This document shows, in pieces, positions 8,506 to 30,791 of a stretch of 34,416 nucleotides of DNA; position 1 is the first letter of the stretch, and each line of letters begins with the position of its first letter. Location: positions 1 through 34,416 of the forward strand of contig JAFKES010000087.1 in assembly GCA_017308495.1 (NCBI GenBank), given 5' to 3'. This stretch comes from Afipia sp. (lineage in GTDB: Bacteria; Pseudomonadota; Alphaproteobacteria; Rhizobiales; Xanthobacteraceae). A program made the position numbers and the translations under genes. Under the pieces are notes generated by a model that saw nothing but the letters and a program-made list of their open reading frames with translations, was not told where the DNA came from and did not search any database.

Positions 8506-8508
8506 GTG

Positions 8509-10415: not shown

Positions 10416-10477
10416 CTTGCTCTCCCTCGCTACGCGTGGCCCGGGAAACGAGCCACGCGAATTCCGGCAGGGGGACT

Positions 10478-10503: not shown

Positions 10504-10507
10504 ATGG

Positions 10508-14724: not shown

Positions 14725-14788
14725 GACACCTGTCACCTTCGCCGCAACCTCACGGCGTCACCGGACGACCCGATGACGCGGACTTTCC

Positions 14789-14992: not shown

Positions 14993-15019
14993 TGTCGTTT
15001 CCTTCGGGTTCGGGACCGC

Positions 15020-16312
15020 CTAGTCGGCGGCCTCCATGTGGATTTCCTTCAGCTTCTTGATGCCGAGCATGTCGAGAACGAGATTCTCGTAGAATGTCTC
15101 AGGCTTGCCCTGCCGGATCTTGCGCAGGAAATATTTTTCAAAGCCGATCTTGGCGGCGTGCACCCACAGCCCCTGCGACGCCCAGTTGACGTTGCGCGGC
15201 GGGATCTGCGGCTGAGCGACGAAGGCGATGCCGTCGTCGCCGAAATCAGCGAGACAGACCGCATTCCAGCTTGCGACAGCTCGGGGCTCCTCGCCCCGGA
15301 GCAACGCGGCGATGTTCTCCGCCGTGGCCGTCACCATCGATTCGATCATGAAGCCGGTCTTGGGCACACCGACCGCGAGCGGGTTCTTGCCGACCGGCGG
15401 GATCGCCACACACACGCCGACCGAGAAGACGTTTGGGAAGGCCGGGTTGCGCTGATGCTTGTCGATCGTGATGAATCCGCGCGGATTGGTCAGGCCCTCG
15501 ATGCCATGGACCGCCGGCACCCCGCGAAAGGCGGGCAGCAGCATGGAGAACGCCTGCGGCAGTTCGTGCGTGGCCTTGAGCGAGCCGTCATCGTTGACTT
15601 CCTCGACCACGATCTTGTCGGCCTCCGCCCGGGTGGTACGGGCGTTGGTGATCCATTTGATGTGGCGATGGCGCATGGCGCTCTCGATCAGGCCCTTGGT
15701 ATCGCCGACGCCGTCGAGGCCGAGATGGCCGATATAGGGCTCGGGCGTGACGAAGGTCATCGGCACCCGATCGCGGACGCGCGCGTTGCGCAGCGCGGTG
15801 TCGAGAATGAACGCGAACTCGTAAGCCGGGCCGAAGCAGGATGCGCCCTGCACGGCGCCGATCACCACCGGCCCCGGCTTTTTCACCAGCGCGTCGAAGG
15901 CCGCCTTGGCCTGAAGCGCGTGACCGGTGTGGCAGACGGACTGGGTATGGCCATCGGGACCGAGACCTGGAATCTCGTCGAAGGCGAGGTCCGGTCCGGT
16001 GGCGATAATCAGATAGTCGTAATCGACGACGGAGCCGTCGTTGAGTTCGATTCGGTTGTCCTGGGGATGAACCCGCTTCGCCCCCTCGACCCGCAATCCG
16101 ATGCCCTGCTGCTTCAGGACCGGCCCGAAATCGACCGTGATGTCGCCCGGCTGCCGCCAGCCGACCGCGACCCAGGGATTGGACGGCACAAACGAATAGC
16201 TCGAACCGAAATTGACCACAGTCAGACGATCGTCGCGTCGAATCTTGGCCTTCATTTCGTACGCCATGATAAGACCACCGAGTCCCGCACCCAAAACCAC
16301 GATATGAGACAT
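15020..16312 (-). CDS. sqr: Sulfide:quinone oxidoreductase
   Basis: 430 residues from the ATG at 16312, which follows GGAGGG; longer in-frame extensions lack a ribosome site. It is a peripheral membrane flavoprotein that oxidises sulfide to sulfane sulfur and reduces quinone. The FAD site VVLGAGLGG lies at 5-13 and the second nucleotide region LIIATGPD at 101-108. All three catalytic cysteines are present: Cys127 (SVCHTG), Cys159 (GASCFGPAYE) and Cys353 (NAVCLADFGDDG). Their spacing is close to that of Acidithiobacillus SQR (128/160/356, from memory). The amphipathic C-terminal helices (FEKYFLRKI and beyond) fit membrane attachment. It is divergent from an SqrR-like regulator and first of a probable sqr-DUF2892-RND operon. 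Confidence 0.9.
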   Translation of the reverse strand: MSHIVVLGAGLGGLIMAYEMKAKIRRDDRLTVVNFGSSYSFVPSNPWVAVGWRQPGDITVDFGPVLKQQGIGLRVEGAKRVHPQDNRIELNDGSVVDYDYLIIATGPDLAFDEIPGLGPDGHTQSVCHTGHALQAKAAFDALVKKPGPVVIGAVQGASCFGPAYEFAFILDTALRNARVRDRVPMTFVTPEPYIGHLGLDGVGDTKGLIESAMRHRHIKWITNARTTRAEADKIVVEEVNDDGSLKATHELPQAFSMLLPAFRGVPAVHGIEGLTNPRGFITIDKHQRNPAFPNVFSVGVCVAIPPVGKNPLAVGVPKTGFMIESMVTATAENIAALLRGEEPRAVASWNAVCLADFGDDGIAFVAQPQIPPRNVNWASQGLWVHAAKIGFEKYFLRKIRQGKPETFYENLVLDMLGIKKLKEIHMEAAD

Positions 16313-16431
16313 GACATTCCCTCCGTTTGAGACCTTGCGCCCGCGCCGACGGGTCACCGTCCTGTTTCGAGTTAGGCCCCTGTCGCAACGGCTGCCCGCC
16401 GCGGCGATGGCCCTCTCGTCTTGCTTTCCGC

Positions 16432-16473
16432 TTGACTGTAACATTCAAAAATTATAAATTCAAGAAGATGAAT
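16432..16473 (+). promoter_or_regulatory. Divergent promoter region with SqrR-type operator
   Basis: An AT-rich island in otherwise GC-rich DNA. TTGACT (16432-16437) and TATAAA (16453-16458) form a promoter toward the ArsR gene, with a 15-base spacer that is shorter than ideal. ATTC-N8-GAAT (16458-16473) overlaps the regulator's own ATG (16468) and matches the sulfide-repressor SqrR site as I recall it. A wider ACATTC...GAATGT pair spans 16441-16475. The site would give autorepression and could also control the divergent sulfide:quinone reductase. Confidence 0.6.
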
Positions 16474-16815
16474 GTAAAAGACATGATCCCGGCCGCGGAA
16501 TCGGCCGCCGCGCTGATGCGCAGCCTGTCTCACCCGCAACGCCTGCTGGTGCTGTGTGCACTGGTAGATGGCGAGAAGTCGGTCGCGGACCTGCGCCATC
16601 AGCTCGACATCGATCAGGTGCCGATGTCGCAACAACTGATGCGGCTTCGATCGGACGGCCTCGTCGAAGCCCGTCGCGACGGCACCACCGTTTACTATTC
16701 CATCGTCCGGCCCGAAATTCTGACCATCGTCAGCGCGCTCCACGACGCATTCTGCGCGACGGCTCCAAGCAGCAAACGCAGACGTCCGACACGCGAGGGC
16801 CAATCGAAAACATGA
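16468..16815 (+). CDS. ArsR-family persulfide-responsive repressor (SqrR/BigR type)
   Basis: 115 residues from the ATG at 16468. The winged helix-turn-helix is clear: MRSLSHPQRLLVLCALVDGEKSV, then DIDQVPMSQQLMRLRSDGLVEARRDG and TTVYYSI. Cys30 (LLVLC) and Cys96 (HDAFC) are 66 residues apart, exactly as for the sulfane-sulfur-sensing pair of Rhodobacter SqrR (41 and 107) and Xylella BigR. Oxidation to a polysulfide bridge releases DNA in those proteins. The promoter position would make the message nearly leaderless, since no clear ribosome site precedes the ATG; a second ATG at 16483 is possible. It is divergent from the sulfide:quinone reductase gene, its likely target. Confidence 0.9.
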   Translation: MNVKDMIPAAESAAALMRSLSHPQRLLVLCALVDGEKSVADLRHQLDIDQVPMSQQLMRLRSDGLVEARRDGTTVYYSIVRPEILTIVSALHDAFCATAPSSKRRRPTREGQSKT

Positions 16816-16891
16816 TGGCCGGGCATAACGCCCATCATGGCCGCAGGACAATCAAGGGGCGCGCCACATCTGACTGATCCCCGCGCGGGAC

Positions 16892-17293
16892 ATGAGCGAC
16901 ATCCTGAGAAATGGATACCAGATGGCCACGAAGCGAACGTCAGCGCGTGCGAAAGCCAGACACAAGCCGCCGTTGCAACCACGCCGGGCCGCCGTTCGAC
17001 GGTTTTGCGCTTCGACGACGAGTATCGCCGAGGCGACGGCGTTGCTGCGGGTGTTTTCAAACGCCCGGCGACTGCTCATTCTTCACGAACTCATGGCCGT
17101 GAACGAGCTGTCTGTCGGCGAACTGGTTCATACGGTGGGCGTCCCCCAGGCCTCGCTGTCCCAGCACCTGGCAAAACTGCGCGCGGCAAAGCTGCTCTGC
17201 GCGCGCCGCGAGGGAAAGCACGTCTACTACCACATCGCGAACGAAACGGCGGTCAAACGAACCCTGCAGACCATCGATCGCCTGCTGAGATGA
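16892..17293 (+). CDS. Second ArsR-family transcriptional regulator
   Basis: 133 residues from the ATG at 16892; an ATG at 16922 would remove ten residues. A basic N-terminal tail (about 12-37, rich in Lys/Arg) precedes the winged helix-turn-helix: LRVFSNARRLLILHEL, then GVPQASLSQHLAKLRAAKLL and KHVYYHIANETA. It has cysteines at 39 and 103 but not at the SqrR sensor positions (His replaces the first), and no metal-binding CxC motif in the recognition helix region, so its signal is unknown. It starts 76 bases after the SqrR-like gene on the same strand and ends tail-to-tail with the amidase. A two-regulator transcript is likely. Confidence 0.87.
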   Translation: MSDILRNGYQMATKRTSARAKARHKPPLQPRRAAVRRFCASTTSIAEATALLRVFSNARRLLILHELMAVNELSVGELVHTVGVPQASLSQHLAKLRAAKLLCARREGKHVYYHIANETAVKRTLQTIDRLLR

Positions 17294-17349: not shown

Positions 17350-18741
17350 TCATGCGGGGCACAGCTCGCCGTGCGCATTGAGGCTGGCGCTTTCGAAGGC
17401 CGACGCGATTTTCCGCAACACCCCGTCCTGTCCCGCAATCGCCGCGAAACAGAGAGCGGATGGCAACCCGTCGTTTCGGCGCTTCCCCGGCACGGACACC
17501 GCGCAAAGATCGAGCGGGTTCGCGAAATACGTATAGGTGCCCATGATCGAATTGCGCGTCATCGGTTCCGCCAGCATCTGCTCGATGGTGAAAATCGTCG
17601 GGACCGTCGGCACCGCCAGCGCGGACACACCCGACAATTGCCGAACGACATCATTGCGACGGCGCCGGAGTTCGTAGAATGCCTCGAAGGCCTCTCTGGC
17701 GGTGTAGGACAGGCCCGGCTCGATGGCGGCCCACACGGCCGGATGAATGGTGTCGGGCCGGTTCGCGATCACCTCGCCATAATCGCAGAGCCGCTCGGCA
17801 ACCAGCGGCGACTGGAACACCAGCCGACCGGCTTCCTCGAACGGTCTGAAGTCAATCTCGACCAGATCGAAGCCACACGTTCCGAGGGCTTCGATATTCG
17901 CCTGAAACGCCTCGGCAGCATGGTCATCGCCGAAGAACCGGAGCTGATCCGCCCTCGGAATCGCGATGGTTCGGACGTCCGGCTCCCTCATCGCCAGATC
18001 GATACGGCCGGCGTCCTCGCGGCTGAACGGATCATCGGCATCGTAACCCGCGATCAGTTCGAGAATTTCATACGCTTCCTCGACCTGTCGGGTGAAAACC
18101 GGAATCACATCGAGAATGCGGCTGTTGAACAGCAGCCCTCTTGTGCTGACGAGCCCGATCGTCGGCTTCAGACCGACAATTCCGTTGCAGGCGGCGGGCA
18201 CGCGACCGGAACCGCCGGTATCCGATCCGAGCGCGAACGACACGATGTCGCGCGCCACGGCGACGGCGGACCCCGAACTCGACCCTCCCGGAATGTAGTT
18301 TCGATCGATCGCATTGCAGCAGAGCGGCTCCGGGCTGCGCGTGCCGTTCAGCCCCGTCGCAAACTGGTCCATCGTGTTCTTGCCAATCAGAACAGCGCCC
18401 GCCTCCTCCACGAGACGAACCGCGCGGGCCGATTCGGCCGGCATGATCGACAGTCCCGGGCAGTTGCTTGTCGTCGCCATTCCCGCGACGTGAATGTTGT
18501 CCTTGACCGCAAATGTCAGTCCCAGCAGAGGCAGGCGCTCTCCACGATCCGCGCGCCGCTGCAACTGTTCGACGCGATCGAAAACGTCCGCTTCCGGCAC
18601 GAGCGCGGTGAAAATGCCATCGCCCGATGCGGCTCTGGCGCGGCGAACGCTTTCCTCGATCAAGGATTTGAAATTCAATCTGCGGGTGAGCGCCTCACGC
18701 ACGGAACTGAATGAAAGAGAAATCCGGGAAACGTCCGTCAT
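17350..18741 (-). CDS. Amidase-signature hydrolase, allophanate-hydrolase-like (copy 1)
   Basis: 463 residues from the ATG at 18741. The amidase-signature Ser-cisSer-Lys triad is complete: Lys80 in FAVKDN, Ser154 in GGSSSGSA and Ser178 in GSDTGGSGR. The spacings of 74 and 24 residues equal those of AtzF allophanate hydrolase (Lys91/Ser165/Ser189, from memory), and GSGRVPA rather than GSIR also points to that branch. The C-terminal domain of full-length allophanate hydrolases (about 600 residues) is missing, so it is probably a stand-alone amidase for a small amide or carbamoyl substrate. It is the last gene behind the TauE-like exporter and ABC importer. A second 463-residue homologue is at 24699-26090. 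Confidence 0.9.
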   Translation of the reverse strand: MTDVSRISLSFSSVREALTRRLNFKSLIEESVRRARAASGDGIFTALVPEADVFDRVEQLQRRADRGERLPLLGLTFAVKDNIHVAGMATTSNCPGLSIMPAESARAVRLVEEAGAVLIGKNTMDQFATGLNGTRSPEPLCCNAIDRNYIPGGSSSGSAVAVARDIVSFALGSDTGGSGRVPAACNGIVGLKPTIGLVSTRGLLFNSRILDVIPVFTRQVEEAYEILELIAGYDADDPFSREDAGRIDLAMREPDVRTIAIPRADQLRFFGDDHAAEAFQANIEALGTCGFDLVEIDFRPFEEAGRLVFQSPLVAERLCDYGEVIANRPDTIHPAVWAAIEPGLSYTAREAFEAFYELRRRRNDVVRQLSGVSALAVPTVPTIFTIEQMLAEPMTRNSIMGTYTYFANPLDLCAVSVPGKRRNDGLPSALCFAAIAGQDGVLRKIASAFESASLNAHGELCPA

Positions 18742-18755
18742 GACACTCACGCCGT

Positions 18756-19541
18756 TCAGAAAAGAGAATGGAAGATGTTTCGGGATACGCCGATCATGGC
18801 GATGCAGGAGACCGAGAAAAGAATAGCCAGACTGATCGCCCGGTAATTCGCATGGTTCGTGTTGGCAAAGACCGCTCCGCCCACCAGGACGCCGATGACG
18901 GAGCATGGCACCAGGATCAGCAACGGGACGATCGCATCGGTTGTGAGAAGGCCTTTCGCTGCGGCCAGGGCAATGCCGAGCATCGAGCTGATCGTGACGA
19001 ATGCCATGACGGTGGCGCGAACGACGCGCGGCTGCGCATCGCTCCCCAGAAGGACGATGACGATCGGCGGCGCAGCCATCCCGGCCCCGCCATTGAGAAC
19101 CCCGGAGACAAACCCGGCCACAGCCAGCGACGGCGAACCGGGCGCCCGCCTTGCAAGAACAGGCTGCCGCCACAGGACGATGACAGATAGGGCAACAAGC
19201 ATCGCGATCGTCAGCCGCATGATGTCAACAGGAACGGCGACCAGCACCGCGAGACCGATGGGCGTACCGATCAGCGTTCCGAAGAAAAGCCACCCCAGTA
19301 TCGACGACTGAACGTGGCCTCGTGCCTTCGGCAAGGCGGCACAGGAGATCACGACCTCCATGATGAGACTCGTCGGCACGGCGATGGACGGAAGCAGACC
19401 CATCGTGAGGATCGGCATTGCCGCCATTCCAAAGCCGAAGCCGGAATATCCCCGCACAAAGCCACCGATCATGCCGGCCAGCACCGTCAGCACCACCGTC
19501 GTTGCGGAGGGAAACGCGATCATGACATCGCCGTTGATCAT
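18756..19541 (-). CDS. TauE/SafE-family membrane transporter
   Basis: 261 residues with about eight hydrophobic segments. The two-fold TauE/SafE repeat is visible: GGFVRGYSGFGFGMAAMPIL in the first half and VAGFVSGVLNGGAGMAAPPIV in the second. Members export sulfite or organosulfonates, or sulfoacetate, in sulfonate-degrading bacteria. It lies 14 bases upstream of an amidase gene and 69 bases downstream of the ABC permease, both on the same strand, which fits a sulfur-compound pathway in which the anion released inside the cell has to be exported. Direction and substrate are inferred from family and context. Confidence 0.88.
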   Translation of the reverse strand: MINGDVMIAFPSATTVVLTVLAGMIGGFVRGYSGFGFGMAAMPILTMGLLPSIAVPTSLIMEVVISCAALPKARGHVQSSILGWLFFGTLIGTPIGLAVLVAVPVDIMRLTIAMLVALSVIVLWRQPVLARRAPGSPSLAVAGFVSGVLNGGAGMAAPPIVIVLLGSDAQPRVVRATVMAFVTISSMLGIALAAAKGLLTTDAIVPLLILVPCSVIGVLVGGAVFANTNHANYRAISLAILFSVSCIAMIGVSRNIFHSLF

Positions 19542-19610
19542 GGATGGATCCAGGGAATTGCGCAGGGATATCGCGATGCATCGGAGCTATCGACGACAGG
19601 ATGACGAAAC

Positions 19611-20396
19611 TTAACGTTTGCCCTCCCAATGCACAATCCTGCGGGCGAAATAGGCGATGCATCGATCGCTGACGAGGCCAATGATCCCGATCACCACGAT
19701 TCCAGCGAAGACATAGGTGGTCCGGAAAAAGCTGCTGGCGTCGAGGATCACGAAGCCGAGTCCGCGGTCGCCTCCGAGCAGTTCGGACGCCACAAGGATC
19801 GTCAGCGCCGAACTCATGGAAATGCGCAGGCCCGTCATGATTTGCGGCAGCGCCGATGGCAGAACCACATAGCGGAAGACCTGCCAGCGCGCCGCCCCCA
19901 TCGATTCCGCCGCCCGCAGCGTATCGAGCGCGCACGCGCGTGCCCCCGCCTGGGCGTTGATCATCATGATCAGAAAGACCGACAGGAAAATCAGCAGCAC
20001 CTTGGACAGCTCGCCGATGCCGAACCAGAGAATGAACAGCGGAATGAGACCGAGCGGCGGGATCGGCCGAACCAGCTCGGACGGAACGAGAAGCAACGCA
20101 TCGATCGCCGGAACGCGCCCGCGCAGCAACCCCAGGGTGCCTCCCAGCACCGATCCCGCGGCAAACGCAATCCCGACCCGCCACAGGCTCGCATTGATAT
20201 GTGTCCAGATGCTGATCCCCGAATACCCTCGCTCGAAAATGTCGAACAGACTCGTCACCACTTTGCCCGGGGACGGCAGGATCGTCGCGGGAACGGCGCC
20301 GCGCATGGACACGAAGGTCCAGAGGAGAATGATGGTGAGCGGCGACAGGATAGCGAGCGCGATATACTGGCGTTTTGCTGAAGCAGCGGATTTCAT
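19611..20396 (-). CDS. ABC transporter permease, TauC/SsuC type
   Basis: 261 residues with about six membrane helices. The cytoplasmic coupling loop is clear: RAAESMGAARWQVFRYVVLPSALPQIMTGLRI, with the EAA-type Gly. ILPSPGKVVTSL near the N terminus is typical of the nitrate/sulfonate/taurine permease family. It would form the membrane channel (as a dimer) for the adjacent ATPase and TauA-like binding protein. It lies 32 bases downstream of the ATPase gene, and GAAAGG precedes its ATG. No other permease occurs in the cluster, so the orphan binding protein at 26095-27096 may also use it. Confidence 0.92.
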   Translation of the reverse strand: MKSAASAKRQYIALAILSPLTIILLWTFVSMRGAVPATILPSPGKVVTSLFDIFERGYSGISIWTHINASLWRVGIAFAAGSVLGGTLGLLRGRVPAIDALLLVPSELVRPIPPLGLIPLFILWFGIGELSKVLLIFLSVFLIMMINAQAGARACALDTLRAAESMGAARWQVFRYVVLPSALPQIMTGLRISMSSALTILVASELLGGDRGLGFVILDASSFFRTTYVFAGIVVIGIIGLVSDRCIAYFARRIVHWEGKR

Positions 20397-20428
20397 GCCG
20401 TGGCCTTTCAGTCTCTGCGGTCGGCGCG

Positions 20429-21253
20429 TTAGTGACGCATTCTGCGGTAGATCGTTTCCCGCATCCGGATGAACGATGCATGCAGACGGTTTTCGCCGGA
20501 GTCCCGAGGAGACGGCAGATCGACCGGCATGTCGTCGAACGACCCGTTCTTCAGATCCTCGAGAAGAAAGATCCGGTCGCCCAGAAAGACCGCCTCATCG
20601 ATGCTGTGCGTCACGAACAGGATGGTGCAGCCGATCCGCGCCCTGATGCGCAACACTTCTTCCTGCAACACCTCGCGCGTCTGGACGTCGAGCGCCGAAA
20701 ACGGCTCGTCCATCAACATGACCTTCGGCTTGGCCGCCAGGACGCGCGCAAGACCGACGCGCTGCCTCATCCCCCCGGACAACTGATAGGGGTAGGCATC
20801 GATCGAAGCCGACAGTCCGACGAGGCGCGCCATGTCCTCGGCGACCTCGCGGCACTCCCGCTTTCTGCGGCCCGCGCATCGCAGACTGAACGAGATGTTG
20901 TCCGCCACCGTCATCCAGTCGAACAGCGCGGCGGTCTGGAACACGACGCCCCGATCGGGCCCCGGTCCCGCGATTTCGCGATCGTCGACCAGCGCGACGC
21001 CTTCTGTCGCCTGAAGAAAGCCCGCAACTAGATTGAGAATCGTCGTCTTGCCGCAGCCCGACGGGCCGAGCAGGGAAACGATCTCGCCGGACCGCACCGT
21101 GAACGAGACGTCGCGCATGATGGCGCGACCCTCGTAACTGAATCCGACGCGATCGAATGCGAGGATGGGTTTGACCGGAGACAAAGCCGCTCCTGCGCCG
21201 GCGTCGGGAAAGTGATCGTGCTCGGACACCAGACTGAGGGACCTTCTCGTCAT
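20429..21253 (-). CDS. ABC transporter ATPase, TauB/SsuB type
   Basis: 274 residues. Walker A GPSGCGKT is at 63-70, the Q-loop in VVFQTAALFDWMTV at about 104-117, the signature LSGGMRQR at 158-165, Walker B VMLMDEPFSALD at 178-189, and the H-loop His in VTHSIDEAVFLGDR follows. An N-terminal tail of about 25 residues is not part of the ATPase core, and a start further in is possible. The DxxxALD and TALFDW-type pattern places it with taurine/sulfonate/nitrate importers. Its start overlaps the stop of the binding-protein gene by 4 bases, so the two are translationally coupled. Confidence 0.94.
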   Translation of the reverse strand: MTRRSLSLVSEHDHFPDAGAGAALSPVKPILAFDRVGFSYEGRAIMRDVSFTVRSGEIVSLLGPSGCGKTTILNLVAGFLQATEGVALVDDREIAGPGPDRGVVFQTAALFDWMTVADNISFSLRCAGRRKRECREVAEDMARLVGLSASIDAYPYQLSGGMRQRVGLARVLAAKPKVMLMDEPFSALDVQTREVLQEEVLRIRARIGCTILFVTHSIDEAVFLGDRIFLLEDLKNGSFDDMPVDLPSPRDSGENRLHASFIRMRETIYRRMRH

Positions 21254-22269
21254 TTCCGGCTCTCCAGATAGGTCTGGACCGGCTTGGTATAGAGCAGATC
21301 GCTCCAGTTGGTCGGGATGGATTGAATGCGCTTCTCGCGCAGCAGGAACGCCGCGATGCCCTGCAGATGCTTGCCGAGACGGGAGTCCGCTTCGTGGCCG
21401 GGCGGTCCCATGAAATCCGACGTCAGCACCTGCTCAAACGTCGGGTGCGCCACGCCCTGCCCCTCGACCAGCTTGTCGAACTGGTCGGCCGTCATGTCGA
21501 TTCGTTTGGCTTCGTAGGCGCGAACTCCCGCGGGATCCTTCTTGTAGTCCTGCTGAGCCTGATCCCAGGTCTTCAAGAAGAGCTGCAATGCCTCCGGGCT
21601 GTCGTTGACGAACCCCTTGCGCGCCACCCAGACACCGCCCGTGATCATGTCGAGGCTTTTCGTCGTGGCGATCGGCTTCGCGCCGGCGCGTTCGATGGCG
21701 CCGACATTGGGCTCCCAGACAAACGCCGCATCGATCTGTCCCGCCACATAGGCCGGCGGCATGTTCGCCGGCGACAAGTTGACGAGCGTGACGTCGGATG
21801 GCTGAAGGCCGGCCTTCTCGAGGGCGCGAAGAAGATGATAGTGACTTGTCGACCCGACCGCGACGCCGATCCGCTTGCCCTTGAGATCGCTCAGCGACGC
21901 GATGCCCGCCGCAGGATTGGCCGCAAGCCGGACATTGGTCGCATCGATCCGCTCCATGAAGATGATCTGAACTGGCAGACCGTTGGCAAAGCCGGTCACC
22001 GCCGGAAATTCTCCCATCCAGGCGAGATCGATCTCACCGGCAGCAATGGCAGGAAGCATCGCCGGCCCGGCCGGGAACTGGGAGACCGTCACGTCGAGAC
22101 CGTTCTGCTTGAAAAGCCCTTTCCCCACTGCGTAGGACAGGATGACGTTGATCTCTCCGGTCTGATAGCCAATCCTGATTTTCCTGGCCTCCTGCGCCAG
22201 CAGGTGATGGGACGAGACGAGGAACGTCACCGCGGCGATGACCGCGAGGCGTGAAATGCGACGAAACAT
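21250..22269 (-). CDS. TauA-like ABC substrate-binding protein (copy 1)
   Basis: 339 residues from the ATG at 22269, which follows AGGAGG. A signal peptide is clear (MFRRISRLAVIAAVTFLVSS, cleavage near LLAQEA). The body resembles periplasmic taurine- and alkanesulfonate-binding proteins: IRIGYQTGE, AGPAMLPAIAAGEIDLAWMG, DLKGKRIGVAVGSTSHYHLL, VNLSPA and GQIDAAFVWEP. The STSHYHLLRAL segment closely parallels STTHYSLLAAL of E. coli TauA. It delivers a ligand to the ATPase-permease pair encoded directly downstream; the ligand is probably a small sulfonate or related anion. It is preceded by the M20 hydrolase gene after 32 bases. A homologue is at 26095-27096. Confidence 0.92.
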   Translation of the reverse strand: MFRRISRLAVIAAVTFLVSSHHLLAQEARKIRIGYQTGEINVILSYAVGKGLFKQNGLDVTVSQFPAGPAMLPAIAAGEIDLAWMGEFPAVTGFANGLPVQIIFMERIDATNVRLAANPAAGIASLSDLKGKRIGVAVGSTSHYHLLRALEKAGLQPSDVTLVNLSPANMPPAYVAGQIDAAFVWEPNVGAIERAGAKPIATTKSLDMITGGVWVARKGFVNDSPEALQLFLKTWDQAQQDYKKDPAGVRAYEAKRIDMTADQFDKLVEGQGVAHPTFEQVLTSDFMGPPGHEADSRLGKHLQGIAAFLLREKRIQSIPTNWSDLLYTKPVQTYLESRK

Positions 22270-22301
22270 GCTGACCTCCTGTGAATGCCGTTGCGTCAAT
22301 C

Positions 22302-23618
22302 TCACGCGTCGGCGCCGAGCAATTCGAGAACCGTGAGAGCAAGGATCTTTGTGGCCGCGACCGCCTTGTCGATGTGAATGTACTCGTTGACGGGCGGCCA
22401 TCCGTCTTCACCGGGCCCGAACGTGATCGCCGCATGGCCCCGCTCGGAAAACCGGATCGTGTCGTTGAAGGCGTTCTTGCGATAGATCGCCGGAGGCTCG
22501 CCGAGCATCCTGCTGTAGGCGCGGCTCAACGCCAGCGTGGGATGGGCGCTTTCGTCCTGCTCGCGCGTGCCGTTGACGAACATCGCTCCGGGATATCTTC
22601 GCGCCGTGGCCTCCAGCGTCGGATCGTCGCGCATGTGGCGGTCGATGACAGCCTGAATGTCGGCCATGACGCTGTCCTCGGTCATGCCGGGAAGGATGCC
22701 GACAATGGCGAGCACCGCCCGCGCACGATCCGGCGTGAATTGCATTTCGCGCTTGATGCCGCCCTGCACCCTGATGAGGGCGACCATCGGCGGCGTTCCA
22801 CCGGCGAGCCGCGCCGGCGTATGCGTGAATGTCATCGTTTCGAATGCCGTCAGCAGCCGGGCCATCTTCGCCACGGCGTTGACGCCCGTATCCGGACGCC
22901 ACAAGTGGGTCTTGATCCCGCCAGTTTCGATTTCGACAAGAAAGTTGCCGCCGTTCGCAACCGCGATCCCCATTCCCCACTGGCCATCGGGTCTGGTCCA
23001 GCCGGTCGGCTCGCAAACGATGGTGTAGTCCGCGTCAAGACCGCATTCGTCGAGCAGGAAGATCGAGCCATCAGGCCCGTTCTTTTCTTCATCCGCCGTG
23101 TAGACGCATTTGAGCGTGCCACGCAGGTCGATGCCGGCCTTCCGGATGGCGTTCACAGCGAGCAGCGTGCAGGCGAGATTCCCCCGCGTGTCCGACGTGC
23201 CCCGCGCATAGAGCTTGTCGCCATGCCGCGTCGGCCGGAACGGATGTCCGCCGGTCATCGTCCAGGCGCTCCAGTCCCCCGCCGGATACGTATCGAGATG
23301 ATCGTTGAGAATGAGGGTCGGTTCGCCGGCACGTCCCTGCAACACACCGACGACGTTCGGCCGTCCTTCACGCTTGACCGGAAGGCTGACCGAGAATCCC
23401 ATATCCCTGAGTTTGTCCGCGATGAACAGAGCCGCGCCCTCTTCGCGCGCCGGCGCTTCATCCGGATCGAGCGGGTTCTCGGCGTCGGGCTGACCTGCGG
23501 GCACGAGTTCACATGTGAGATCGAGCCATGACTGTTCGTCGATGTGGCTCAGCACACGACGTTCGATGTCCGTCAGATCACTGTTACGACTATGGGTGGC
23601 CACTTCCTGCATCATCAC
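22302..23618 (-). CDS. M20-family metallo-amidohydrolase (ArgE/DapE type)
   Basis: Up to 438 residues; the start is one of GTG 23618, ATG 23615 or ATG 23612, with GAGG just ahead. Binuclear zinc-site residues are visible: His107 and Asp109 in NDHLDTYP, bridging Asp143 in GTSDTRG, the base Glu177 and ligand Glu178 in TADEEKNG, and Glu203 in CEPTGW. The fifth ligand, normally His in a HxxxE motif near the C terminus, appears to be Pro (GEDGWPPVNEYIHID). The family removes acyl, succinyl or carbamoyl groups from amino nitrogen. It is first of the binding protein-ATPase-permease-exporter-amidase series. Without the His it may bind one metal or use another ligand; this is from an eye alignment. 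Confidence 0.9.
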   Translation of the reverse strand: MMMQEVATHSRNSDLTDIERRVLSHIDEQSWLDLTCELVPAGQPDAENPLDPDEAPAREEGAALFIADKLRDMGFSVSLPVKREGRPNVVGVLQGRAGEPTLILNDHLDTYPAGDWSAWTMTGGHPFRPTRHGDKLYARGTSDTRGNLACTLLAVNAIRKAGIDLRGTLKCVYTADEEKNGPDGSIFLLDECGLDADYTIVCEPTGWTRPDGQWGMGIAVANGGNFLVEIETGGIKTHLWRPDTGVNAVAKMARLLTAFETMTFTHTPARLAGGTPPMVALIRVQGGIKREMQFTPDRARAVLAIVGILPGMTEDSVMADIQAVIDRHMRDDPTLEATARRYPGAMFVNGTREQDESAHPTLALSRAYSRMLGEPPAIYRKNAFNDTIRFSERGHAAITFGPGEDGWPPVNEYIHIDKAVAATKILALTVLELLGADA

Positions 23619-23748
23619 CTCGCGCGATTACGGCAAGAGAAGAGCAAGACGCGTGCCAAACCATATCGTCTTGTCGAAAGGCGCTGAAACGGCCGTATTT
23701 CTCGCGTATTTCCCCGCAAATCGAGAGGTCGCGATGCGCAATGCGGCG

Positions 23749-23764
23749 TGTCAGATAATTTCCT
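23749..23764. promoter_or_regulatory. Shared 16-base motif, copy A
   Basis: TGTCAGATAATTTCCT, about 130 bases upstream of the M20 hydrolase start and about 66 bases downstream of the Crp-type gene start of the next unit's end (its stop is at 23831). The identical 16-mer is at 27276-27291 upstream of the second binding protein. In both places GCAATGCG lies shortly before it on the plus strand (23738-23745 here). It is probably a regulator site or part of a promoter shared by the two transcription units. Confidence 0.6.
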
Positions 23765-23830
23765 TCAAAGCCCGATTGGAGCTTCAATGGGCCGGGGCGG
23801 CATACGTTCTGGAGGCACGTGGCGAACCGC

Positions 23831-24571
23831 TTATTCGTCCTCGGCGGCCGCCGCCGCAGACAACAGATCGGGGCGCAGGATGATCAGCATTCCACGCTTC
23901 TGGCTGAGGATTCCGCGTTCCTGCATCCGGTTGAGACTGATGGTGACCCACTGGCGCGTCGCACCGATCAGCTTGGCGATTTCAGCATGGGTGAAGGCTG
24001 CGGCGATGGCGATAGCGCCGCCCGCTCCTTCCTCGAAACCATGCGTGTCGACGAGATGCATCAGCACCTGCGCCAGCCGCTGCGATAACGAACGCGTGCC
24101 GAGCATCTGGGCCAGCGAAGAATAGCAGCGCGCCTTGAACACCAGCGCGTCGATGATTTCGAGCGCCAGATCGGGGACCTCGCGGGCAAGCTCGCGCAGG
24201 CCGGCTCCCGGAAGGTGAATGACGGTGCTCTTTTTGGCCGCCAACGCAGACCACATATGGATGCCGCCGCCGAAAATCTCAGGGCCTCCGACAAAATTTC
24301 CGGGCAGCCAGTAAGCCAGGGTAATCTCGCGACCCGACGGCGCGGTATAGAAGCTGCGAACCAGCCCGCTTTCGATGATCGCAATGCCGTCATGGGCATC
24401 GCCCTGGAGAAACAGCCTTTCCCCCCGCTGGTACGACCTGCGCGTGCCGTGCCGCTCAACGCGCGCGCGCGCGTCCGCTGGAAGCCGGCTGACCAGACTG
24501 GGCTGGCGAACCGTTGTCCCAACGGCATCGGTCAGCCGGACGCCGGCCGTTTTCTCGCCGATTTCTGTCAT
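23831..24571 (-). CDS. Crp/Fnr-family transcriptional regulator
   Basis: 246 residues from the ATG at 24571. An N-terminal cyclic-nucleotide-type beta-roll (about 25-130: YQRGERLFLQGDAHDGIAIIESGLVR, then LAYWLPGNFVGGPEIFG) is followed by a long dimer helix and the Crp helix-turn-helix (AAFTHAEIAKLIGATRQWVTISLNRMQERGIL). There is no N-terminal cysteine cluster, so it is not an oxygen-sensing FNR. It lies between the two blocks of the amide/sulfonate cluster on the same strand, 127 bases downstream of the amidase at 24699. A local regulator of the cluster, perhaps acting at the shared 16-base motif, is the simplest guess; its effector is unknown. Confidence 0.9.
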   Translation of the reverse strand: MTEIGEKTAGVRLTDAVGTTVRQPSLVSRLPADARARVERHGTRRSYQRGERLFLQGDAHDGIAIIESGLVRSFYTAPSGREITLAYWLPGNFVGGPEIFGGGIHMWSALAAKKSTVIHLPGAGLRELAREVPDLALEIIDALVFKARCYSSLAQMLGTRSLSQRLAQVLMHLVDTHGFEEGAGGAIAIAAAFTHAEIAKLIGATRQWVTISLNRMQERGILSQKRGMLIILRPDLLSAAAAAEDE

Positions 24572-24612
24572 GGCCGTTCTTACCACGCAGACAATCGGAC
24601 CGGCAAAGCCGT

Positions 24613-24659
24613 TCTCTCCCGCCGCGTGGAACGAGGGCAACAGCCGTTGCCGGGAGAGA
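24613..24659. repeat. Nested inverted repeat between amidase 2 and the Crp-type gene
   Basis: TCTCTCCCG (24613-24621) and CGGGAGAGA (24651-24659) are exact reverse complements, and inside them GGCAAC-AGCC-GTTGCC (24636-24651) forms a second hairpin sharing one base. The 127-base gap holds no gene. It could be a transcript-end or attenuator-like structure between the two genes. Confidence 0.4.
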
Positions 24660-24698
24660 CAACAAGCCTACCTCGCAGCAGCAGGCCCAATCGATGGC

Positions 24699-26090
24699 CT
24701 AGCGCGCGCCCTGGCGGGCGGCCCGATGCGGCGCCTCCTGAACGGGCGGCAAGCGTTGTGCGAGCGCCACGAGGTTTCGATCATGCCAGGCTGGCGCAAC
24801 CAGTGTCAGGCCCGATGGCATCCCGTTATCGAGAAATCCGTTGGGCACGCTGATCGCGCAAAGGTCCAGCAGATTGACGAAGTAAGAATAGTATCCGACC
24901 TCGATATTCCTCTCGATCGGCGCAGCGTTCACCTCCTCGATGGTGAAAGGCCGGGGCGCGGTCGGGACGAGCAAAAAGTCGACGTCCTTGAACACGACCA
25001 GCGCCCGCCGCCGCAGTTCCATGAGGCGATAGGTCCATTCGAAGACGTCGACCGCCGACCACTGATCCGCACGGTCGAAGATCTTGCGGACAACGTCGAG
25101 CAACGCGTCGGGCTGCTTCTCGAAAAACGCACGTATCCCGGCTTTCCGTTCTGCGACCCACGGACCATTCAGCATCATCCGGCCGGCTTCGCGGAACAGA
25201 GCGAAGTCTATGTCACGAACCTCTCCGCCGATGTCGACAAACCGCGCCACGCCTTCGTTGAACTTGTCCGCGGGCTCGATGGCGCCATACCATTCGCGCT
25301 GGTCGGATGCCGGCACAGCGAAACGGAATGCGCCGGATAAAGCGCCGCCCCTGGGTGCCGGTTCGACTCTCTGCTTGGAGAACGGATCGCTCTCGTCATA
25401 GCCTTCGACGACCTCGAATATCTCTGCCACATCGGCGACATTGAGCGCGAAAACCGTCGGACAGTCGAAGCAACGCGAGTTTGGAACGACACCATTCAAC
25501 GAGAGCGCCCCGATGGTCGGCTTGAGGCCGACAATATTGTTGTAACCTGCCGGAATGCGTCCGGAGCCGCCAGAATCGGTGCCGAGCGCAAAACTCACCT
25601 GCCCCTTGGCGACAGCGACAGCAGATCCCGAGCTTGATCCGCCGCCAATATAGCGGGCGTCATAGACGGAAGGGCAAATGCCATAGGGCGATCGTGTGCC
25701 GGTCAACCCGGTCCCGTGCTGGTCCATATTGGTCTTGCCCAGGCAGATCGCACCGAGCTGAACCAGCTTCTCGACAATGGGAGCGGATTTGTCGGGATCG
25801 TAGGAAAACGCCGGACACGCCGCCGTGGTCGGCATTCCAAGAACATCGATGTTGTCCTTGACGGCGAAGGGCAGTCCATACAGCGGAACGAATTCCCCGC
25901 GCCTCTTTCGCTGCAATTGCCTTTCGACCTGCCCGTAAATCTCGGCGGACGACGCACGATGGATCCAGACCGATTGCGTCTTCTCGCCGTCGAGGGAATC
26001 CAGAATCGCACGGAAAACGTCGCGGATCGAATCGTCGCGACGATACAGGGCGCGCAGCGCCGAGAAGCTCAAGTCCATCCTGTCGGCCAC
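24699..26090 (-). CDS. Amidase-signature hydrolase, allophanate-hydrolase-like (copy 2)
   Basis: 463 residues from a GTG at 26090; the ribosome site GAGG lies in the last codons of the upstream binding-protein gene, four bases away. The triad is complete: Lys78 in FAVKDN, Ser152 in GGGSSSGS and Ser176 in GTDSGGSGR, with spacings of 74 and 24 identical to copy 1. Landmarks run in step with copy 1 throughout (TNMDQHGTGLTGTRSP against TMDQFATGLNGTRSP; GLKPTIG in both; a Tyr-rich TYFANPLDLCA / SYFVNLLDLCA near the end). It likely hydrolyses a related but distinct amide. Translational coupling with a TauA-like binding protein suggests its substrate is that protein's ligand. Confidence 0.9.
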   Translation of the reverse strand: MADRMDLSFSALRALYRRDDSIRDVFRAILDSLDGEKTQSVWIHRASSAEIYGQVERQLQRKRRGEFVPLYGLPFAVKDNIDVLGMPTTAACPAFSYDPDKSAPIVEKLVQLGAICLGKTNMDQHGTGLTGTRSPYGICPSVYDARYIGGGSSSGSAVAVAKGQVSFALGTDSGGSGRIPAGYNNIVGLKPTIGALSLNGVVPNSRCFDCPTVFALNVADVAEIFEVVEGYDESDPFSKQRVEPAPRGGALSGAFRFAVPASDQREWYGAIEPADKFNEGVARFVDIGGEVRDIDFALFREAGRMMLNGPWVAERKAGIRAFFEKQPDALLDVVRKIFDRADQWSAVDVFEWTYRLMELRRRALVVFKDVDFLLVPTAPRPFTIEEVNAAPIERNIEVGYYSYFVNLLDLCAISVPNGFLDNGMPSGLTLVAPAWHDRNLVALAQRLPPVQEAPHRAARQGAR

Positions 26091-26094
26091 GGCG

Positions 26095-27096
26095 TTACCT
26101 CGTTTTCATTCGCACGAAGGTCGCCACCGGAGCCTGATTGATGAGCGGGCCAAAACTGGCGGGCAGCCGGTCGATACGTTTGTTGTCGAGCAGGAACTGA
26201 CCGATAGCGCCGACCTGTGCCAGCACGGCGGAATCGGACGGCTTGTCTTGCGAGCCCAGATAGTTCGGAGAGAGCTGGGCTTCGACCGGAGGGAAGATCG
26301 CTCCCTGACGCGCGATCAGAGCCGAGAGGTCTTCCACCGTCTGGTTCAGGCGCTTTGCTTCATAGGCCAGAACGGCCTTCGGATCCTTGGCGTAGTCGGC
26401 CAGCCCGTCGGACCATGCCTGCAGGAATTTCTGGAACTCATCCTGATTTTTCGACAGGTAGTCCGTGTTGATGACACCGAACAGGCCGGTGATGGACCCG
26501 AGGCTCTGTGTCGTCGCCAGCACCTTGCCGCCCTGCTTTTCAAGCTCGCCGCTGCCGGGCTCCCATGTGAACGCAGCATCGATTTGTCCCGCCGTATAGG
26601 CTGGCACCATTGCCGCCGGCGCCAGATTGACCAGCGTCACATCTTGCTCGCTCAAGCCCGCAGCCTTGAGCGCCAGAAGCACAAAATTATGACTGGTGGA
26701 TCCGATGGTGACGCCGATCTTCTTGCCTTTCAGGTCGGCGAGCTTCTCGATCTTCGCTGCCGGGTTGGCGACAAGGCGAACATCTGTCGGCAGCAGGCTC
26801 TGCACGAGCACGATCTGAATGGGGAGGCCGTTGGCGAATCCGGTTGTCGCCGGAAACTCGCCCATCCAGCCGAAGTCGATTTCTCCCGCCGCCAAAGCAG
26901 GAAGCATTGCGGGACCCGCCGGAAACGGCTTGAGTTCAACCTTCACGCCACGCTGCGCAAATTTTCCGGTCTCGAATGCGTAGGTCAGGATCGCATTGAC
27001 GACTCCAGTCTGCCATCCGATGCGGATATCGGCACGCGCCGGAGACTGTAGCGTAACCGTGATGAACAATGCCGTGAGCAGGACAGATCGAAACAT
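26095..27096 (-). CDS. TauA-like ABC substrate-binding protein (copy 2, orphan)
   Basis: 333 residues; the ATG at 27096 follows GGAGAA. Signal peptide MFRSVLLTALFITVTLQSPA with cleavage near ARADIR. It parallels copy 1 closely (AGPAMLPALAAGEIDFGWMG, GKKIGVTIGSTSHNFVLL, VNLAPAAMVPAYTAGQIDAAFTWEP), but TSHN replaces TSHY in the likely ligand loop, hinting at a different ligand. No permease or ATPase accompanies it; the pair at 19611-21253 would have to serve it. It is first of a two-gene unit with amidase 2, and a 16-base motif shared with the other unit lies about 180 bases upstream. Confidence 0.9.
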   Translation of the reverse strand: MFRSVLLTALFITVTLQSPARADIRIGWQTGVVNAILTYAFETGKFAQRGVKVELKPFPAGPAMLPALAAGEIDFGWMGEFPATTGFANGLPIQIVLVQSLLPTDVRLVANPAAKIEKLADLKGKKIGVTIGSTSHNFVLLALKAAGLSEQDVTLVNLAPAAMVPAYTAGQIDAAFTWEPGSGELEKQGGKVLATTQSLGSITGLFGVINTDYLSKNQDEFQKFLQAWSDGLADYAKDPKAVLAYEAKRLNQTVEDLSALIARQGAIFPPVEAQLSPNYLGSQDKPSDSAVLAQVGAIGQFLLDNKRIDRLPASFGPLINQAPVATFVRMKTR

Positions 27097-27275
27097 GCTG
27101 GTTCTCCTGTGATCAGGTAAACCTCAGCAATCATCGTGCCATTCGGCGATCCCGAGTGATTGTCCCGGCGCAAGCCCGTCTTCTTGACGAACGCCCGCCG
27201 TAAATCGAACGTCGGCTCTGATGAATCCATGCAAGGCGCGGGAATGGCGTCGACGCAACCGCAATGCGCCGCCTT

Positions 27276-27291
27276 TGTCAGATAATTTCCT
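27276..27291. promoter_or_regulatory. Shared 16-base motif, copy B
   Basis: TGTCAGATAATTTCCT, identical to 23749-23764, inside the 314-base divergent gap between the second binding protein (minus) and the RidA-like gene (plus). GCAATGCG is at 27261-27268. I see no gene in the remainder of this gap. The motif could control both directions. Confidence 0.6.
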
Positions 27292-27410
27292 GCGCGGTGA
27301 CGTGTGGCGGCTTAAGCACCAATCGTGCCCAAACTCGCAACTTGATCGCGGCTCCATGATTTCGCAGATTCCATCGGCCGGCGGTTATCACATGACCATG
27401 GGATGCGGAC

Positions 27411-27797
27411 ATGGAAAAGCTTGTTGCTGAAGTTCCAGAACTCGCGAAAAGTCTGGAGGGCTGGTATTCGCCAGGCATCCGCGTCGGCAATCTCGTGTTT
27501 CTGAGCGGCCTTGCCGGCAAGAACCGCGCGACCGGACAGATACTGCCATCCGTCGAAGACCAGATCCGCCAGATCTTCGCGGACATGTCGACGATTCTCA
27601 CGGCACACGGGGCGCAGCTTTCCGACGTCGTCAAAATGACGATGTATTTCACCAACAGAAAGCGCGACTGGCCGGCGTTCGATCGGATCCGACGGGAACT
27701 GTTTCTGTCTCATCCGCCCTGCACCATCGGCGTCGGGGTGACGGAAATCGCTCTTGGCGCCGACATCGCGATCGATGCGATTGCTGTGGTGACTTGA
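27411..27797 (+). CDS. RidA/YjgF-family protein lacking the usual active-site residues
   Basis: 128 residues. The family signature WYSPGIRVGNLVFLSGLAG is near the N terminus, and SVEDQIRQIFADMSTILTAHGAQLSDVVKMTMYFTN is the typical helix and strand. Canonical RidA deaminases hydrolyse reactive enamines and imines with an Arg in P-x-R-(S/T) and a Glu nearer the end; here the equivalent stretch reads HPPCTIGVGVTE and ADIAIDAIA, so by eye both residues are replaced. It therefore belongs to one of the divergent Rid subfamilies, which often accompany amide, carbamoyl or pyrimidine catabolism genes. It is divergent from the orphan binding protein and shares its regulatory gap. Confidence 0.9.
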   Translation: MEKLVAEVPELAKSLEGWYSPGIRVGNLVFLSGLAGKNRATGQILPSVEDQIRQIFADMSTILTAHGAQLSDVVKMTMYFTNRKRDWPAFDRIRRELFLSHPPCTIGVGVTEIALGADIAIDAIAVVT

Positions 27798-28097
27798 CCG
27801 GTCCGCAGACCATCCAAGGGCCATCGACGTGGCATGCGTCTTCGCTCACGAAATGGCGCAAAGATCCGCCAGGCCCGCGGCACCCCCGCCGAGGGACATC
27901 CCGCTCGGCAAGCCAAAGCCGGCTCGCCGCTACCGGGGTAGCCTGCCAAGCTCAACAGCCAATTGATGTTCATCGGGAAAATGGTGCCAGGGGCGTCATC
28001 ACATTGATCAAGATATTATGGATATCCAAGCCTATCCGATTTAGGCCCATTAAAAACTACCAACAAAAATACCAACAATTTCGCTGAATACAGGCGA
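27798..28097. other. Gap with no supportable gene; start of AT-rich islet
   Basis: The first half is still GC-rich; from about 28000 the sequence becomes clearly AT-richer, with a short repeated ACCAACAA (TACCAACAAAAATACCAACAATT near 28058-28080). I find no tRNA, integrase or convincing ORF. It marks the left border of the islet that runs to about 31490. Confidence 0.5.
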
Positions 28098-28397
28098 TCA
28101 ACGAAAAACACTGACGGACATGAACGACGAGTTGGCTCCAACCGTCGGTTTCGGCTTCAAGGATATCTTGGGTGACCTAACAACCCGTTTTGGTGGAAAC
28201 ACCTGATACATGTCACCCCAAGCATAGCGATCATCGACGGCTTGAGCACCCTTGGAGCAATAATCGACTAAGCTCGCCAGTCCCCTCGCAGGATCGAAAT
28301 GCTTGATTCGGACGTCGCCAAATTTCTTCAGTTCATCGTCGAATCCGTTGAGCATGTGCCGGAGCGGCTTGACCGGCCCCCACTGGGTGGTCCGATT
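28098..28397 (-). pseudogene. Probable gene remnant, unrecognised
   Basis: An open frame (85 residues from the first ATG at 28355, and open upstream to a stop at about 28400) with protein-like composition: TTQWGPVKPLRHM, then ELKKFGDVRIKHFDPARGLASL and VDYCSKGAQAVDDRYAW. The HFDPARG...YCSKG pattern recalls the C-terminal part of rolling-circle-type replication proteins, but this is a weak impression. It lacks a start region and ribosome site and looks like a truncated 3' fragment. Confidence 0.35.
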
Positions 28398-28483
28398 GGA
28401 ATGTTAGTTTAGAGGGTGCATTTTGACTATCTCCTTTGGTGCTGGCCTATGACGCGAAACAACAGCGAGCGGAATCGCAGCGG

Positions 28484-29032
28484 CTAGTTCCATTTGCAGC
28501 TACCGAAGTAATAAGATAGTCGAACCGGCAATGGCTGCTCGCTGGTTGGCGGAAGCGAGCCTATTCGACTCATCGCGTCGCACTCGTTAGTGCCTGACCA
28601 GATTCTAATTACAATTTCCTCGAAATAAGGAGCGTAATCAAGATCTTTAGTTCGAATTGTAAACTGGTCAAAGTCACCTTTGTCTATATGAGCACAGTCT
28701 CTTCTTGCAGAATATGCAAAGCCGTCCGGCTCGATAATCCGAAAGGGTGTTGGCGGCGTATTCGAACGGTACTCGCAGCGATGTGAAAAGGCCGAGGTCG
28801 TTCCGCGCCAGGTTAGCGTCACATACTCTGATCCGTAAGAAATTGAATATTTGAAAGATCTCGTATCTTCGATCGGCACGCATCCGTCGGGCGTAAACTC
28901 AACAGTAGCGCAATCAAAACTAATTTGATCGCGGATTGAGAATTCAACCTCTCTCTCGAGCGCCTGTGCAGTTCTTACTGTGAACATAAGGCATGCTATG
29001 CCAACGCTCATGAAGATGCCGGATAACTTCAT
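28484..29032 (-). CDS. Secreted protein of unknown function
   Basis: 182 residues. A signal peptide is clear (MKLSGIFMSVGIACLMFTV, cleavage near AQAL). The mature part has seven cysteines (for example FDCATVEF, PDGCVPI, HRCEYRS, RRDCAHI, NECDAM and FGSCKW) and alternating hydrophobic residues that suggest a disulfide-bonded beta fold. I do not recognise the family. The ATG overlaps the stop of the upstream secreted protein (ATGA), and GGAGG lies five bases before it inside that gene, so the two are coupled. The AT-rich codon use differs from the flanking core genes, consistent with acquisition from elsewhere. Confidence 0.7.
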   Translation of the reverse strand: MKLSGIFMSVGIACLMFTVRTAQALEREVEFSIRDQISFDCATVEFTPDGCVPIEDTRSFKYSISYGSEYVTLTWRGTTSAFSHRCEYRSNTPPTPFRIIEPDGFAYSARRDCAHIDKGDFDQFTIRTKDLDYAPYFEEIVIRIWSGTNECDAMSRIGSLPPTSEQPLPVRLSYYFGSCKWN

Positions 29033-29988: not shown

Positions 29989-30333
29989 GCGAAAAGGACT
30001 CAAAAAAGAATAGAGCAATCTAAACCAAGGAAACTAAAGCAGATCGGATGTTTCTCCGCAATAAGTGGTTACCTCGGGCGCGAACCGGAGCGGGATCTCT
30101 TCTTAGCTTCCGGTAGCCGCGCGATCATATTCTATTTTTCGGGAACCGGAGTATGCTCAGTTGACCAAAGCGATTCGCTTTGACCACCGATGCCCGTTAC
30201 GCACGCTTTACGGAGGGGGGCATGGTCAATCAAGCTACTCAAGTAGCCGCGTATCTCGGTCAGATGTGTTTCGAACTTCACAAAATTGCTGCGACCACAG
30301 CAGAACTTGGCCTTCTGGCATCTATCCTTGAGA

Positions 30334-30576: not shown

Positions 30577-30600
30577 AGACAAGCCTGCGCCGTCAAACGA

Positions 30601-30756: not shown

Positions 30757-30791
30757 TTGGCCTACCCCCATGAGGTGGTCCGGTTTCAGTC

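Follow-up and report, generated by a model that had tools for sequence, protein, structure and literature searches.

A candidate import-and-hydrolysis gene cluster combining SsuA/TauA-type binding proteins, AtzF-like amidases and an M20 hydrolase in Afipia sp. and its relatives

What would a bacterium obtain from a sulfonate-type importer that is encoded among three hydrolases and beside no desulfonating enzyme? This question is raised by a ten-gene cluster at positions 17350..27797 of contig JAFKES010000087.1 of Afipia sp. (34,416 nt; assembly GCA_017308495.1), the whole contig being referred to here as the window. We tentatively favor the answer that the cluster encodes a system that would win nitrogen by hydrolysing an imported sulfonate that bears an amide or ureido group and has no free amine. 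The window corresponds to contig C228 of the host assembly, which comprises 251 contigs and 4.02 Mb and is 97% complete. The first-pass annotation had described ten genes, nine of them on one strand, as one import-and-hydrolysis system. All ten open reading frames (ORFs) are indeed found at this place, nine on the minus strand and the Rid gene on the plus strand, and the Pfam families named for them were matched: Amidase twice (3.4e-68 and 9.9e-77), TauE, BPD_transp_1, ABC_tran, NMT1-type substrate-binding protein (SBP) twice, Peptidase_M20, cNMP_binding with HTH_Crp_2, and Ribonuc_L-PSP for Rid.

The minus-strand genes form two runs, SBP1-AMI1-Crp and M20-SBP2-ATPase-permease-TSUP-AMI2, with intergenic distances of -4 to 69 bp inside both; the Rid gene is divergent, and a 212-bp gap containing a promoter-like sequence precedes M20. 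For SBP2 and AMI2, the longest possible ORF runs into the gene upstream, and the first fitting ATGs lie at 22269 and 18741, the latter making both amidases 463 amino acids (aa) long. The features are as follows.

27411..27797, plus strand: divergent Rid-family protein, 128 aa (Pfam family match)
27276..27290, minus strand: 15-bp element GGAAATTATCTGACA, copy 1, between SBP1 and Rid (sequence match)
27126..27141, minus strand: sigma54-type -24/-12 promoter-like site TGGCACGATGATTGCT, upstream of SBP1 (sequence match only)
26095..27096, minus strand: SBP1, SsuA-family periplasmic binding protein (Pfam and NCBI family cut-off)
24699..26090, minus strand: AMI1, AtzF-like amidase, 463 aa (family match, residues, tree)
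23831..24640, minus strand: Crp/Fnr-family regulator (Pfam family match)
23749..23763, minus strand: 15-bp element, copy 2, upstream of M20 (sequence match)
23643..23658, minus strand: sigma54-type promoter-like site TGGCACGCGTCTTGCT, upstream of M20 (sequence match only)
22302..23618, minus strand: M20 metallo-hydrolase, distinct clade (alignment, 18 members)
21250..22269, minus strand: SBP2, SsuA-family binding protein, 339 aa from the ATG at 22269 (family match, pocket residues)
20429..21253, minus strand: ABC ATPase, TauB/SsuB-like (family match)
19611..20396, minus strand: ABC permease, TauC/SsuC-like (family match)
18756..19541, minus strand: TSUP (TauE/SafE) membrane protein (Pfam TauE)
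17350..18741, minus strand: AMI2, AtzF-like amidase, 463 aa (family match, residues, tree)

The gene set is not limited to this strain. Of 297 genomes of the order, 12, host counted, contain a match to the M20 protein (E<=1e-60). A collection of named genomes yielded 11 M20 loci, in Methylobacterium, Methylopila, Hansschlegelia, Aquabacter and metagenome-assembled genomes (one labelled Rhodospirillales), of which two coincide with matches in the order sample, and a further locus lies on plasmid pMRAD01 of M. radiotolerans. An M20-profile search of a class-wide sample (E<=1e-90) returned one genome in 385, the host itself. Synteny was scored on 22 distinct M20 loci, the window included (loci carry L numbers below), which are not independent, as L018/L023, L024/L028/L029 and L031/L032/L033 are close kin and L019 is a short contig piece. 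In this set M20 has a permease as neighbor in 22/22 loci, an SsuA/TauA-type SBP in 21/22 and an ATPase in 18/22; an AtzF-like amidase of any kind lies near M20 in 18/22, and an AMI2 orthologue in 14/22. Less frequent neighbors are the Crp gene (10/22, within 2.5 kb), TSUP (4/22), Rid (3/22) and a PRK08275 flavoprotein (2/22). The proposal of a single system is upheld by this conserved synteny, together with the common element and promoter-like sites described below, but TSUP and Rid, which had been counted as members and are present here, are optional partners and not core.

Both SBPs exceed the SsuA-family cut-off TIGR01728 (177.8 and 172.2 bits versus 163.5) and are 48% identical to each other; the SBP1 run contains no permease or ATPase of its own. 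In the published structures, Gln30, Gly61, Gly79 and Thr132 of Escherichia coli TauA hold the sulfonate and Glu106, Thr132 and Asp205 the amine (PMC6906117), and in X. citri SsuA the sulfonate is held by Gln36, Gly68, Gly86 and Ser141, with Trp185 facing the pocket (PMC3839906). We found Gln30, Gly61, Gly79, Thr132 and Trp176 (TauA numbering) conserved in SBP1, SBP2 and 13/13 of their nearest relatives (E<=1e-40), which is consistent with the taurine/sulfonate-type importer named at first pass. Glu106 is replaced by Val in both proteins, and Asp205 by Gly in SBP2 and Leu in SBP1. Because these amine-binding residues are replaced, free taurine is an unlikely substrate, and we ruled it out on this residue pattern. 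The cluster thus resembles SsuABC and TauABC in the sulfonate-pocket residues of its SBPs and in its permease and ATPase family, but differs from them in that its ten genes include neither SsuD nor TauD, in having hydrolases in place of oxygenases, and in having two SBPs to one permease and ATPase.

Allophanate hydrolase is the closest solved structure to both AMI1 and AMI2. AMI1 also scores above the NCBI allophanate hydrolase cut-off (529.5 versus 511.05 bits), so an annotation pipeline may label it as that enzyme. The Lys-Ser-Ser motifs VKDNI, GGSSSG and D(T/S)GGS are present in both amidases at spacings of 74 and 24 residues, and we take them to correspond to K91, S165 and S189 of AtzF. 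Y299 and R307 of Granulibacter AtzF are presumably the substrate Tyr and Arg that position allophanate. We compared 36 amidases, of which the M20 loci together with five plasmid controls contributed 24 and other genomes 12; amidase-signature proteins in L018, L025, L074 and L082 (about 27-31% identical to AMI1) were left out. The substrate Arg is conserved in 36/36, AMI1 and AMI2 among them. At the position of the substrate Tyr, AMI1 has Leu and AMI2 has Phe, and the Tyr is replaced in 22/36 in all (Phe 21, Leu 1); these 22 all have D(T/S)GGS, and at their loci no AtzF C-terminal domain, fused or separate, was found. Among the 14 amidases that keep the Tyr, ten have the C-terminal domain at their locus and three do not (L079-L081, one clade, with DAAGS), and L083 is cut by a contig end. 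In a tblastn search (E<=1e-3), the domain had no match in any of the 22 M20 loci, the window among them, and matched ten control loci. In L075-L078 and L082 the allophanate hydrolase is split, a short Tyr-type AtzF being followed directly downstream by C-terminal domain sequence, so that an amidase gene without the domain is no diagnostic sign by itself.

In a maximum-likelihood tree of 34 amidases, AMI2 and 13 others, all from M20 loci, formed one clade (support 100/100), and AMI1 grouped with L072 and L073 (100/99). Five M20-locus amidases fall outside the AMI2 clade (those of L021, L031, L032 and L034, and AMI1). No close orthologue of AMI1 was found among the loci examined, its tree neighbors, from two genomes of the same family, being 53% and 47% identical, and a host search (E<=1e-90) detected no AtzF-like protein besides AMI1 and AMI2. 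An AlphaFold2 model of AMI2 reached a mean pLDDT (predicted local distance difference test) of 64, with values <50 around the active site. As judged from residues and tree, AMI1 and AMI2 belong to a subgroup descended from allophanate hydrolase. They share with AtzF/TrzF the amidase domain, the Lys-Ser-Ser motifs and the substrate Arg, but lack the C-terminal domain and have Phe or Leu for Tyr and D(T/S)GGS for DTAGS. We rejected true allophanate hydrolase as their identity, the substrate Tyr being replaced and the C-terminal domain absent. We also set aside a link to sulfonylurea herbicides, which had been raised by the presence of the cluster in Hansschlegelia zhihuaiae S 113, a strain reportedly connected with herbicide work. 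The AtzF of Chenggangzhangella CHL1 is longer than AMI1 and AMI2 and is given as 61 kDa in its study (PMC9456165).

The M20 protein retains H107, D143, E177, E178 and E203, which are invariant among 18 aligned members. The full metal-ligand set of M20 ArgE/DapE enzymes takes in a C-terminal His, and at this position of DapE the window protein has P408 and 18/18 members have Pro, Ala or Ser, in a stretch where the alignment scores weakly. When the 18-member profile was used, the best solved-chain match was 5-nitroanthranilate aminohydrolase (1.3e-26); as a single sequence, the window protein matched DapE best (1.3e-18) and 5-nitroanthranilate aminohydrolase at 1.5e-15. It fell under the cut-off of all 25 NCBIfam models among the matches listed (25 of 48). 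These proteins form a distinct clade in the family of the ArgE/DapE deacylases and 5-nitroanthranilate aminohydrolase, from which they differ by the missing C-terminal His, and C-N bond cutting is the activity that we would propose for them.

The descent of AMI1 and AMI2 from allophanate hydrolase keeps a ureide alternative open, namely a urea-like nitrogen system without sulfur, in which M20 and the AtzF-like enzymes, much like guanidine and cyanurate-type clusters, would strip ammonia from an imported small anionic ureido or amide compound. In line with it, NMT1-type ABC importers adjoin AtzF in the three guanidine-type (uca/UAAP) and two ring-opening-amidohydrolase clusters examined, and some M20 loci have branched-chain/urea-type ABC genes nearby, among them one that weakly matches UrtA. 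However, the AtzF C-terminal domain and Tyr, both present in ten control loci, are absent here, and no urea carboxylase or ring-opening amidohydrolase is found among the ten genes. The SBP pocket is also unlike those scored in these clusters and at the Tyr-type AtzF loci L075-L078: guanidine-cluster SBPs (3/3) have Ser/Thr, Tyr and Thr in place of Gln, Gly and Gly, and an SBP of pMK-3 beside a ring-opening amidohydrolase, the only scorable one since the second such SBP is truncated, has Gln, Ser and Asn. We regard the ureide system as possible but rather unlikely.

Upstream of M20 in several loci we recognized a shared element, GGAAATTWTCWGACA, accompanied by a sigma54-type -24/-12 site. Both gene runs of the window carry a perfect 15-bp element and a perfect sigma54-type site, upstream of SBP1 and of M20. 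Exact sites for the 14-bp core of the element number two in the host and six in the 12 M20-positive genomes, all at this cluster; the core is present in 5/12 of these genomes and absent from 7/12, and a reversed-sequence control gave 0. Relaxing the core by one mismatch revealed no further site in the host, and by two mismatches four more (reversed control 1). The element (<=1 mismatch) lies upstream of M20 in 9/10 loci with a Crp gene there and in 0/12 without one (Fisher p 2e-5), an association that draws on the very loci that supplied the element and is confounded by kinship among them; L022 is the locus with a Crp gene and no element. In those nine loci a sigma54-type match (<=2 mismatches) follows the element, with its start 95-107 bp downstream of that of the element, and a match with <=1 mismatch occurs in 11/22 M20 upstream regions versus 0.2% of shuffled ones. 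Within the window alone and with mismatches allowed, finding the element and the sigma54-type site twice each is unremarkable, two matches being obtained in 10 and 17 of 100 shuffles, and the genome-wide counts weigh more. A Crp-type protein by itself is not known to open a sigma54 promoter, so an AAA+ activator must exist if the promoters are real. The two gene runs probably form one regulon, with the adjacent Crp-type protein and a sigma54 activator in control; the protein that binds the 15-bp element and the working of the promoter-like sites are predictions from the DNA sequence.

We then consider the fate of sulfur. It had been noted that no taurine dioxygenase, Xsc or desulfonating enzyme accompanies the importer, and the Pfam family search found no TauD, Xsc or desulfonating enzyme among the ten genes. 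Nor did SsuD (E<=1e-100) appear in the 97%-complete host assembly or Xsc above its cut-off in any of the 12 M20-positive genomes, host included. As the standard C-S-breaking enzymes were not found in the host, bar a short TauD-family match, use of the nitrogen part is favored. The TSUP protein scores 98.4 bits for Pfam TauE and has no NCBIfam match, and sulfite or sulfonate export by it is a prediction; export of a sulfur-bearing remainder, as first suggested, fits the TSUP gene present here but cannot be general, since TSUP is found in so few loci. The Rid protein has Thr at the position of RidA Arg105, presumably the catalytic residue of RidA, and its relatives in L019 and L025 (51-53% identical) have Thr as well.

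These data also bear on a sulfur-source explanation, by which the hydrolases would merely unmask a sulfonate or N-sulfo compound that is desulfonated by an enzyme encoded elsewhere. SsuD is present in 7/12 M20-positive genomes, luciferase-like monooxygenases (NtaA/DmoA-type or SfnG-like) are encoded close to L016, L018, L019 and L023, and PRK08275, a flavoprotein akin to APS/PAPS reductase, occurs in 10/12 M20-positive versus 15/285 M20-negative genomes of the order sample and, in L021 and L037, no more than 10 kb from M20. The PRK08275 co-occurrence points to a sulfur setting, with genus as a confounder, and the host has no PRK08275, no SsuD and no Xsc above its cut-off, with a single short TauD-family match. 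The presence of TSUP speaks against this explanation too, as do the sigma54-type promoters, which are commoner for nitrogen or carbon genes. We consider it unlikely for the system as a whole, although Methylopila-like relatives with SsuD could possibly use both nitrogen and sulfur. A thiamin-salvage-like role with an aminopyrimidine substrate, in which an NMT1/THI5-type importer is paired with an ArgE/DapE-like deformylase as in ThiXYZ-YlmB, draws on the same importer superfamily (Pfam NMT1) and on M20 deformylase logic, but is very improbable, because the solved SBPs nearest to SBP1 are SsuA and TauA with THI5 marginal (4.9e-4), no TenA-like gene is among the ten, and the AtzF-like amidases would have no role.

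The PRK08275 clusters lie at L037:4903-13881, L021:491-7877, L074:13369-19900 and L075:9364-15999. They also hold a small 4Fe-4S protein, a HEAT-repeat protein, a Crp regulator and SsuA-family ABC genes; 3/4 include DUF971, and the solved chain nearest to PRK08275 is the PAPS reductase alpha subunit, followed by AprA. The NtaA/DmoA-family monooxygenases and the SfnG-like one (below cut-off) are encoded at L016:5786-7237, L018:14171-15448 and L018:18801-20138, and their relatives in L019 and L023 are near M20.

According to the amide-bearing sulfonate reading, the substrate would be an organic anion that yields nitrogen and perhaps carbon, most likely a sulfonate of the kind represented by N-acyl- and N-carbamoyl-aminoalkanesulfonates or sulfo-amides. 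SBP1 and SBP2 would feed one common TauBC/SsuBC-like transporter, and in the cytoplasm M20 and the two Ser-Ser-Lys amidases would cleave C-N bonds to release ammonia. In some hosts including this one, the Rid-like protein might remove an enamine or imine product, and TSUP might export the sulfonated remainder without desulfonation. Expression would be sigma54-dependent, given the element and sigma54-type site common to both runs. We infer the substrate class, the common transporter, the order of cuts and the export from the computed gene content, synteny, element, promoter matches and residue patterns. The first-pass interpretation is partly supported, its substrate remaining a prediction.

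Several observations weigh against this reading. In SBPa of pMRAD01, Gln, Gly and Gly are retained, whereas Thr and Trp are replaced by Ala and Phe, and the second SBPs of several other loci have different pockets. In a second M20 group (L022 and L031-L036; 7/22 loci), identified in a survey of 26 further SBP-like ORFs, TauA-like SBPs have Glu106 and Asp205, with Leu for Gln30, so a single sulfonate substrate does not suit all relatives. The same anion-dipole arrangement also serves nitrate and other anions, as stated in the SsuA paper (PMC3839906). Where SsuD is encoded, sulfur use stays open, and the host itself contains a single 79-residue match to the TauD family, a broad one (36.5 bits versus a Pfam cut-off of 27). 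The confounded Crp association belongs here as well, and the sigma54-type sites, which are sequence matches not rare within the window alone, are no proof of nitrogen control. Taken together, we see it as possible, though more doubtful than the nitrogen reading itself, that this is an undescribed Hyphomicrobiales route to nitrogen from N-acyl or N-carbamoyl sulfonates that leaves the C-S bond intact and is marked by the Phe/GG amidase branch, the His-less M20 clade and a dedicated operator with sigma54 promoters.

A close likeness by description is with the acesulfame clusters of the alphaproteobacteria Bosea and Chelatococcus. In the report on Bosea sp. 100-5, these combine an ABC importer having a distantly TauA-like SBP with two amidases, of the amidase-signature type as here, and a TauE-like protein proposed to export the sulfamate left by hydrolysis (PMC10413263). 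They differ in that the first cut is made by an MBL-type sulfatase, in their recent plasmid/transposon assembly, and in that the Bosea cluster gene table of that report contains no M20, Crp or Rid gene; the Pfam search in turn found no MBL-type acesulfame sulfatase among the ten genes. By analogy, they are a precedent for joining import, hydrolysis and export of sulfur-bearing waste. Guanidine (uca/UAAP/AtzF) and cyanurate-type clusters likewise pair an NMT1-type ABC importer with an AtzF-type amidase, but have other SBP pockets, true AtzF and other accessory enzymes. In the open-licence literature, a weak test of absence from print, we recognized no description of an equivalent cluster, amidase subgroup or element.

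The G+C content of the cluster region is 61.6% versus 65.7% in bases 1-16800, and it falls to 53% at window 28000-31500, where an IS3-type transposase fragment occupies 30792-31154; acquisition of the cluster is thus possible. Beside AMI2, window 15020-17293 encodes an oxidoreductase that weakly matches type-III SQR and two regulators of the ArsR type, both akin to BigR but below cut-off, a block that is possibly sulfide- or sulfite-responsive. Beyond it lie an RND efflux pair (10508-14736) and an encapsulin-type shell protein (Linocin_M18, 3.6e-97; 7696-8505).

For the family, this analysis implies that genes annotated as 'allophanate hydrolase', 'aliphatic sulfonate ABC transporter substrate-binding protein' and 'M20 family metallopeptidase', such as those on pMRAD01, would form one pathway, and that automatic annotation may misname its hydrolases. 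A Phe or Leu in place of the Tyr that precedes the conserved Arg and the lack of a C-terminal domain at the locus are two markers against true allophanate hydrolases in the 36 amidases compared. If the sulfonate reading is true, a nitrogen-only way to use organosulfonates would be added, and its genes are directly testable in Methylobacterium.

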